A program made the position numbers and the translations under genes. A stretch of 8,857 bases of DNA from contig JAKCEW010000020.1 of the NCBI GenBank assembly GCA_023539445.1, positions 1-8,857 of the forward strand. The letters run 5' to 3'. Below, piece after piece: positions 3,278 to 8,447 of the stretch. The notes beneath the pieces were generated by a model. The model had not been told where the DNA came from. It saw only the letters and a list, made by a program, of their open reading frames with translations, and made no database searches. Source of the stretch: Candidatus Terraquivivens yellowstonensis (lineage in GTDB: Archaea; Thermoproteota; Nitrososphaeria_A; Caldarchaeales; Wolframiiraptoraceae). Position 1 is the first letter of the stretch. The number at the start of each line of letters is the position of its first letter.

Positions 3278-3302
3278 TCTGCCCCTTCTCTATATGGGTT
3301 GT

Positions 3303-3830
3303 ATGAAATTAGTCGTTCTTAGGCTGGGTCATAGAATACATAGGGACGAAAGGGTTACGACGCATGTCTGCCTGACCGCTAGGGCGTTTGGTTGCGATGG
3401 TGTAATCATCTCGGGACAGCCGGACGAGGGTGTGAAGAGGTCCGTGGAGGATGTGGTACAGAGGTTCGGTGGTAAATTCTTCGTCGAAATAAGGCGGGAT
3501 TGGAAGCGCGTCATAAAAGAATGGCTTGAACTTGGAGGAGAAGTGGTGCACCTGACAATGTACGGGCTTCAGTTGCCCGAAGTAATCGAAGAGATAAGGT
3601 CCTCAAACAGGGACAAGCTCATAATCGTAGGCTCTGAGAAGGTACCAGGCGAAGTTTACAGGATGGCAACTTGGAATGTTTCCGTGACGAACCAGCCAAT
3701 ATCTGAGGTTGCGGCGCTAGCAGTTTTTCTTGACTGGCTACAACAGCATCGCGAATTCTACATAGAGTTCGAGAATGCAAAGATTAAGGTAATTCCATCG
3801 GCAAGGGGAAAGAGGTTGGTCCGTTTGTAG
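3303..3830 (+). CDS. trm56: tRNA (cytidine(56)-2'-O)-methyltransferase Trm56
   Basis: This SPOUT-family enzyme methylates the 2'-OH of C56 in the T-loop of archaeal tRNAs using S-adenosylmethionine. From the ATG at 3303 it has 175 residues, the usual core length. Family signatures, in this numbering, are VVLRLGHR near the N-terminus with DERVTTHVCLTARAF after it, HLTMYG at 83-88, IVGSEKVP at 108-115, and NQPISEVAALAVFLD at 130-144, which lies in the knotted SAM-binding region. An in-frame ATG at 3294 would add MGC; the family normally begins just before VLRLGHR, so 3303 is preferred, though neither start has a clear ribosome-binding site. It directly follows tfe and is probably cotranscribed. 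The three tRNAs in this window all keep C56 in a TTC T-loop and are potential substrates. Confidence 0.93.
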   Translation: MKLVVLRLGHRIHRDERVTTHVCLTARAFGCDGVIISGQPDEGVKRSVEDVVQRFGGKFFVEIRRDWKRVIKEWLELGGEVVHLTMYGLQLPEVIEEIRSSNRDKLIIVGSEKVPGEVYRMATWNVSVTNQPISEVAALAVFLDWLQQHREFYIEFENAKIKVIPSARGKRLVRL

Positions 3831-4018: not shown

Positions 4019-4112
4019 TGGGCCGGCCCGGACTCGAACCGGGGATTTCCACCGCTTCCTGTAGCTGCAGTCTAAGTCAGGGTGGCGTCATACCAGGCTA
4101 GACCACCGGCCC
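4019..4112 (-). tRNA. tRNA-Val(GAC) with a 20-nt anticodon-loop intron
   Basis: The minus strand folds into a full cloverleaf. The acceptor GGGCCGG pairs with CCGGCCC, followed by discriminator A at 4019 and no encoded CCA. The D-arm is GTC...GAC, the anticodon stem CCACC/GGTGG, the variable region AAATC, and the T-arm CCCGG-TTCGAGT-CCGGG. The anticodon loop is 27 nt, 20 too long. Removing 4056-4075 leaves CTGACGC, with anticodon GAC (4076-4078) for valine. This placement is backed by the intronless tRNA-Val(UAC) at 8375-8447, which has the same acceptor stem, the same T8-G9-GTC D-arm start and also G at position 37. The splice site would lie between positions 36 and 37, one base off the canonical 37/38. 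Exact splice ends are inferred, and the GAA (Phe) reading was rejected. Confidence 0.85.
4056..4075 (-). other. tRNA-Val(GAC) intron
   Basis: This 20-nt insert in the anticodon loop can form a bulge-helix-bulge-like structure. CCTG before the insertion pairs with CAGG in the intron, an ACT bulge follows on the 5' side, a short TAG/CTA inner helix closes the loop, and an AA|G bulge lies on the 3' side. It is a relaxed form rather than the strict motif. Splicing would be by the archaeal tRNA endonuclease. Confidence 0.6.
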
Positions 4113-4635: not shown

Positions 4636-5433
4636 ATGGATGACTTCTTGATGATGCTGGATGGGGTTCTAATAGATGCAGGCAAGACATTATCCAACAA
4701 GTCAAGATACGACATACTGACGGCCCTCTCGAAAGGAAGGAGGACAATATTACAGATCGCGAAGGAAACTGGTCTAAGTCAGATGACTGTCCGTTTCCAC
4801 CTTAAGGCACTCATCGAGGCTGGCCTAGTGAAAAAAAGCAGTATGTGCAGGACTGGAGGGGCTGGAAGACCATGTGCTTTTTATGAGCTCTCTAGGTCCT
4901 TGACGATGATATCGTTCCCGCCTAGGCAGTACATGCTCCTTTCTTATGCTCTCTTGTCCGCTCTCAAAGAATCTTTGGGAGAATTACAAGCAAAAACCGT
5001 CCTATACGGGTTGGGTAAGAGACTAGGCCAGAGCCTTAGGGCGGAGATAGAAAGAGCCCTTGCGAACGATAACGAATATACCGTAGAAAGATTCACCCAT
5101 TACCTAATTGACGTATGCTTTAAAAAGATTGGGATAATTGCCGAAGCCGTCAGGAGCAGCGACAAGGAGTTGCTCATAAAGCTCTACAACTGCCCGTTCG
5201 AGGAAGTGGCACGAAGTTATGCCAGTCTGATCTGTGAAGGCTTTGGGAACGGCCTTTATGATGGCATATACACGAACTGCAAGGGCTTTGCATGGAAGAA
5301 AGCAAAGAGCGTTTCGAAGGGAGATGAGTATTGTGAACATGTGCTGTTCTTAACATTCGGGAATAACAAAAAGGAATTACGCGAAAACAATATAAATAAT
5401 CATAGAAGCATCAAAAATTTGATGCCCCGGTAG
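4636..5433 (+). CDS. ArsR-type winged-helix regulator with SufR-like cysteine domain
   Basis: This 265-residue protein is a predicted transcription regulator of the COG2345/SufR kind. Residues about 20-66 are a winged helix (SRYDILTALSKG, LQIAKETGLSQMTVRFHLKALIEAGLV), with the wing at 73-85 carrying GGAGRPCAFYEL. The C-terminal part (about 100-240) has C186 in YNCPFEEVA, C200, C215, and C233 in KGDEYC. These spacings (x13, x14, x17) resemble the cysteine array that holds an Fe-S cluster in SufR repressors, where loss of the cluster relieves repression. Redox or Fe-S sensing is therefore plausible but inferred; no suf genes lie in the window. The ATG follows GGGGG (4622-4626) and GGT. The last 25 residues are a low-complexity N/K-rich tail, and the stop TAG lies inside the tRNA-Phe gene. 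Confidence 0.88.
   Translation: MDDFLMMLDGVLIDAGKTLSNKSRYDILTALSKGRRTILQIAKETGLSQMTVRFHLKALIEAGLVKKSSMCRTGGAGRPCAFYELSRSLTMISFPPRQYMLLSYALLSALKESLGELQAKTVLYGLGKRLGQSLRAEIERALANDNEYTVERFTHYLIDVCFKKIGIIAEAVRSSDKELLIKLYNCPFEEVARSYASLICEGFGNGLYDGIYTNCKGFAWKKAKSVSKGDEYCEHVLFLTFGNNKKELRENNINNHRSIKNLMPR
5389..5398 (+). promoter_or_regulatory. TATA box of tRNA-Phe(GAA), inside the upstream coding region
   Basis: AATATAAATA is centred about 30 bp before the tRNA 5' end at 5424, matching archaeal promoter spacing. It overlaps the codons for the N-rich tail of the preceding regulator. Confidence 0.6.
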
Positions 5434-5519
5434 CGCAGATCGGGAGCGCGCCCGGCTGAAGACCGGGGTGTCGTGGGTTCAAGATCTCCTCAAAGGGGAT
5501 GGAAATCCCACCCGGGGCA
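5424..5519 (+). tRNA. tRNA-Phe(GAA) with a 22-nt T-loop intron
   Basis: The cloverleaf is clear: acceptor GCCCCGG with CCGGGGC and discriminator A at 5519 (no CCA encoded), D-arm GCGC-AGATCGGGA-GCGC, anticodon arm CCCGG-CTGAAGA-CCGGG with anticodon GAA, variable region GTGTC, and T-stem GTGGG/CCCAC. The anticodon loop is a normal 7 nt, but the T-loop (5478-5506) is 29 nt. Removing 22 nt restores TTCAAAT. The insert is therefore a non-canonical intron near tRNA position 58/59, not an anticodon-loop intron. The gene overlaps the last 10 bases of the regulator gene, whose TAG stop is tRNA bases 8-10, and ends 8 nt from the stop of the convergent membrane-protein gene. Confidence 0.93.
5483..5504 (+). 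other. T-loop intron of tRNA-Phe
   Basis: This is the 22-nt insert in the T-loop. TTC (5478-5480) pairs with GGA (5501-5503), flanked by a 3-nt bulge AAG (5481-5483) on the 5' side and AAT (5504-5506) on the 3' side. Inside, 5484-5489 pairs with 5495-5500 to close a 5-nt loop. That is a near-ideal bulge-helix-bulge for the tRNA-splicing endonuclease. Because of flanking A residues the ends may shift by one or two bases. Confidence 0.8.
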
Positions 5520-5527
5520 TCAAACTT

Positions 5528-8374: not shown

Positions 8375-8447
8375 GGGCCGGTGGTCTAGCGGCTATGACG
8401 CTGCCCTTACGAGGCAGAGGTCGTGGGTTCGAGTCCCACCCGGCCCA
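8375..8447 (+). tRNA. tRNA-Val(UAC), intronless
   Basis: This is a 73-nt cloverleaf without insertions: acceptor GGGCCGG/CCGGCCC with discriminator A at 8447, D-arm GTC-TAGCGGCTAT-GAC, anticodon arm CTGCC-CTTACGA-GGCAG with anticodon TAC, variable AGGTC, and T-arm GTGGG-TTCGAGT-CCCAC. CCA is not encoded. Its acceptor stem matches the tRNA-Val(GAC) at 4019-4112, which supports both identities. Confidence 0.96.

Follow-up and report, generated by a model that had tools for sequence, protein, structure and literature searches.

The tRNA-Phe(GAA) gene of Candidatus Terraquivivens yellowstonensis is interrupted in its T-loop by an intron that is real and evolutionarily kept. The gene lies in the window, by which we mean the whole stretch of 8,857 nt that was analyzed. 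It is very probably a functional tRNA-Phe(GAA) gene, and probably the only one of the genome, with a 22-nt bulge-helix-bulge (BHB) intron that would be removed by protein splicing between nucleotides 59 and 60.

The gene occupies positions 5424-5519 of the forward strand, 96 nt from G1 to A73, exactly where the earlier note had placed it. The anticodon GAA (5458-5460) sits in a 7-nt loop, and the T-stem (GUGGG, 5473-5477, with CCCAC, 5507-5511) encloses a T-loop of 29 nt (5478-5506); the normal anticodon loop and the long T-loop described in that note are thus borne out. Under the 59/60 model, sequence and the comparison of six genomes assign nucleotides 1-59 to a 5' exon at 5424-5483, and U60, the 3' strands of the T-stem and acceptor stem and A73 to a 3' exon at 5506-5519. 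ARAGORN called a tRNA-Phe(gaa) here but misplaced its 3' end at 5499, and with the Rfam tRNA model the gene reached 23.2 bits, against a cut-off of 29. Because of the 29-nt T-loop, then, the gene was mis-ended or under-scored by both tRNA finders that were run. Together, leader (5418-5423) and trailer (5519-5524) add 6 bp (TTTGAT/ATCAAA) to the acceptor stem. This extension measures 3-6 bp across the six species and covaries in G004, where it reads CAGAT/ATCTG; in most other tRNAs of the genome it is 0-2 bp.

The insert forms a strict BHB motif that spans the T-loop (5478-5506). A central helix of 4 bp joins UUCA (5478-5481) to UGGA (5500-5503) and is flanked by two 3-nt bulges, AGA (5482-5484) on the 5' side and AAU (5504-5506) on the 3' side. 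Between them lies an inner hairpin (5485-5499) of at least 5 bp, with UCUCC (5485-5489) opposite GGGGA (5495-5499). When the geometry is defined as a 4-bp central helix and at least four inner pairs in exactly this register, it is reached by 1.4e-4 of shuffled inserts (n=500,000) and by 3e-4 of random 22-mers. Nearest-neighbour folding slightly favours an open 6x6 internal loop over the BHB (-47.3 vs -45.0 kcal/mol), which carries little weight as an objection, because it is the bulged form that the enzyme binds. Both the 22-nt length of the insert and the BHB with 3-nt bulges on either side had been proposed in the earlier note, and both agree with what was found.

Removal of the insert yields a standard T-loop, UUCAAGU or UUCAAAU depending on the register, and both match the T-loop consensus. 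In archaeal introns at 37/38 a 5-bp stem is followed by four loop bases that enter the central helix; two bases of the 5' bulge then stay in the 5' exon and one base of the 3' bulge in the 3' exon. A sister genome (G003) carries such a 37/38 intron in its own tRNA-Phe, and it fits this layout, with CUGA/UUAG as the central helix and AGA and UCA as the bulges. Applied to the T-arm, the same rule, a cut after the second bulge nucleotide, places the splice at 59/60, the intron at 5484-5505 and the spliced loop at UUCAAGU. This canonical BHB rule makes 59/60 the probable splice point. If both bulges were instead cut one base further upstream (5483-5504), the loop left would be UUCAAAU, as given in the earlier note, which was right about the 22 nt and the standard T-loop and is probably one base off in the product. 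Several intronless relatives do have UUCAAAU or UUCGAAU. However, G59 is seen in other relatives too (TTCAAGT), and the base that follows it is A in four species and G in two (G003 and G004), variable as an intron base could be; together with the 37/38 rule these observations make the cut further upstream improbable.

The intron is present in 6/6 genomes of the genus that were examined. When the six T-arms were aligned with that of a member of a distant family (G180), 98/98 cells were paired, compared with 43-58% when the partner was slid. Double changes affect 6 pairs and are all owed to the separate G180 sequence; within the genus the changes that keep a pair are one-sided (U-G/U-A and U-A/U-G). 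In G003 and G004 the tRNA-Phe contains a second intron, of 14 nt, at 37/38 and with the same layout. The gene order around tRNA-Phe is common to the members of the genus, and no match to the genes of the window was found at the tRNA-Phe loci of other genera. Outside the genus, tRNA-Phe is uninterrupted in several genera of the family, where its loop reads, for example, TTCAAAT, TTCGAAT or TTCAAGT. From the genes of the archaeon and the composition of the genome set, the phylum was taken to be Thermoproteota, with a possible place near Caldiarchaeum. In a pattern scan of 398 genomes of this phylum, G180 was the only genome outside the genus with a T-loop intron, the pattern being blind to a tRNA-Phe with an added anticodon intron, so that G003 and G004 were found separately and others were possibly missed. 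The G180 gene (G180:C14:29926-29987, reverse strand, L066) has a 22-nt T-loop intron of its own, with UUCA/UGAG, 3-nt bulges and the same geometry. Its D-arm region appears to be interrupted as well. We have a well-supported genus-wide case, absent from the sister genera examined, and a second, separate occurrence with the same length and layout.

Upstream of the gene, a TATA-like sequence (ATATAAATAA, 5390-5399, forward strand) is the putative box A of its promoter and is directly preceded by GAAAACA (5383-5389). The TATA-like box and the stretch GAAAACAATATAAATAATCA, likewise upstream of tRNA-Phe, are identical in 6/6 genomes of the genus. An ORF for an ArsR-like regulator (4636-5433, forward strand) stays open through the tRNA promoter, where it encodes ENNINN, and its stop codon TAG (5431-5433) falls inside the tRNA-Phe gene; both features recur in all six species. 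The earlier note had named an intact second tRNA-Phe(GAA), with this one unexpressed, among the cases that would speak against it, and no second gene was found in the assembly, which is 95.8% complete, by similarity or by anticodon pattern.

It may be asked whether the gene has simply decayed, or whether the long T-loop is kept in the mature RNA. The Rfam score under the curated cut-off would suit such a reading, and a hairpin insertion would be stable. Against this, the exons are conserved in six species, with no other tRNA-Phe found, and every species keeps the BHB in its register. Removal of the insert also yields a standard T-loop, and a retained insert would cost the contact between D-loop and T-loop. 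We regard decay or retention as very unlikely. An artefact of assembly or contamination, which a metagenome bin of 35 contigs could invite, is less credible still, since the intron recurs in six separate genomes, which belong to one genus and share a gene order but differ in the sequence of the intron. A functional gene with a spliced intron remains the preferred reading.

The genome encodes two EndA proteins, alpha and beta, as well as RtcB. The best matches of alpha are the catalytic subunits 3p1z (E 1e-49) and 2cv8, which we take to be those of Aeropyrum pernix and Sulfolobus tokodaii, respectively. Alpha retains the catalytic Tyr, His and Lys in the motifs GSDFAVY, DHAPFIV and VRKRFV; beta, a weaker homologue of EndA, lacks the His. 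The segment GYYGKPLGIPKPK of alpha aligns gap-free with GYYGQPLDVEKPR of 3p1z, which places the first K of PKPK opposite K44 of A. pernix, so that alpha possesses the conserved lysine of the crenarchaea-specific loop (CSL). The function of this loop has been described in a paper that also names K44 (PMC6379350). A catalytic alpha combined with a structural beta corresponds to the heterotetrameric (alpha-beta)2 type, and the sequences predict such a complex here. The heteromeric EndA that the earlier note advised looking for is thus encoded, as the two-subunit broad-specificity type with its CSL lysine. That note also held that a noncanonical intron usually implies an endonuclease of relaxed specificity. 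A broad-specificity enzyme is indeed encoded, but the T-loop motif is a strict hBHBh' and does not itself demand one; the need for a relaxed EndA comes rather from other tRNAs that the genome encodes and, in two sister species, from a 37/38 motif that is weak. Nor is the enzyme an explanation for the gain of the intron. Nearly all of 61 genomes searched have two EndA genes, with or without the T-loop intron, and an EndA special to the genus was accordingly rejected.

About half of the tRNA genes listed for the genome carry introns, many of them outside 37/38 on inspection, and no T-loop interruption was seen in the other intron-bearing genes of this list. The tRNA-Asp(GUC) gene (G000:C3:3769-3909, reverse strand, L076/L123) has an apparent intron in the 3' strand of its acceptor stem, at 68/69, where the parts follow one another as CCCGGCCA, TGGGGAGGGTTGAAACCCTGCCCGCCGAA and GGGCG. 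Splicing would restore GCCCUGG/CCAGGGC with G73, from a BHB with CGGC/GCCG and 3-nt bulges. The remaining five species of the genus (L124-L128) show the same 3' arrangement, which was not seen in family f2, and this intron is possibly more unusual than the one in the T-loop. At 4019-4112 on the reverse strand, ARAGORN reported a tRNA-Ser(act). This gene is a tRNA-Val(GAC) whose anticodon loop contains an intron, and its body agrees with that of tRNA-Val(TAC) at 8375-8447.

What was observed directly is the sequence with its motif, the conservation of this motif in six species, and the genes for EndA alpha, EndA beta and RtcB; from these we infer transcription, cleavage, an exact boundary and ligation of the pre-tRNA-Phe. 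In the proposed scheme the T-arm and the anticodon arm would look alike to the enzyme, each with a 5-bp stem and a 7-nt loop, so that an intron after nucleotide 6 of the T-loop would present to the two-subunit EndA an hBHBh' substrate identical in form to that at 37/38. EndA would cut within both 3-nt bulges and RtcB would join the exons, giving the T-loop UUCAAGU. Before splicing, the elbow between D-loop and T-loop should be unable to form, and modification of U54, U55, C56 and A58 would therefore probably follow splicing. As the earlier note pointed out, the window also encodes aTrm56, the tRNA C56 2'-O-methyltransferase (3294-3830, forward strand; Pfam PF01994, E 8e-50). The C56 that this enzyme targets is part of the interrupted loop. 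Pus4 of an alga is unable to modify U55 in pre-tRNA that still has a T-arm intron (PMC9602550). By analogy Trm56 may need the spliced tRNA-Phe, and it is plausible that splicing precedes T-arm modification such as C56 methylation. That the intron has been kept throughout the genus because splicing by EndA gates all T-loop modifications, including that by Trm56, or because it blocks integrases for which the 3' end of the tRNA gene serves as attachment site, is a speculation that we think unlikely to hold. The pre-tRNA-Phe nevertheless provides a clean natural substrate for asking whether T-arm modifications wait on splicing.

In the literature examined we found no description of a genus-wide 59/60 intron in tRNA-Phe, and a term search of a report on Aeropyrum and Sulfolobus tRNA cDNAs (PMC4307357) brought up nothing on T-loop introns. 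The position 59/60 is itself listed as a noncanonical site of archaeal tRNA introns (PMC4090602), and those introns (Marck and Grosjean 2003; PMC4090602) resemble ours in the BHB, in the position predicted for it and in the heterotetrameric kind of EndA that is predicted here; the host genus and the isoacceptor are different here. In Thermofilum pendens, the permuted tRNA-iMet and tRNA-Tyr are joined at 59/60 (PMC3218864), likewise through a BHB junction between T-loop nucleotides 59 and 60. There, however, the tRNA halves are swapped, whereas the tRNA-Phe described here has an ordinary cis intron. The T-arm is also interrupted in Caldiarchaeum subterraneum (PMC3293823) and Cyanidioschyzon merolae (PMC9602550), in tRNAs that differ from the tRNA-Phe here, and C. 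merolae is a eukaryote with an endonuclease that differs from archaeal EndA. Since 59/60 and T-arm introns have already been published, the tRNA-Phe intron belongs to a known kind. Its closest parallel in form is the canonical 37/38 intron, which has the identical layout of a 5-bp stem and a 4-bp central helix built from the first four loop bases, and is cut after loop base 6, as the tRNA-Phe intron would be, in the anticodon arm rather than the T-arm. The tRNA-Phe intron thus fits the view that, for EndA, 59/60 is the T-arm equivalent of 37/38.
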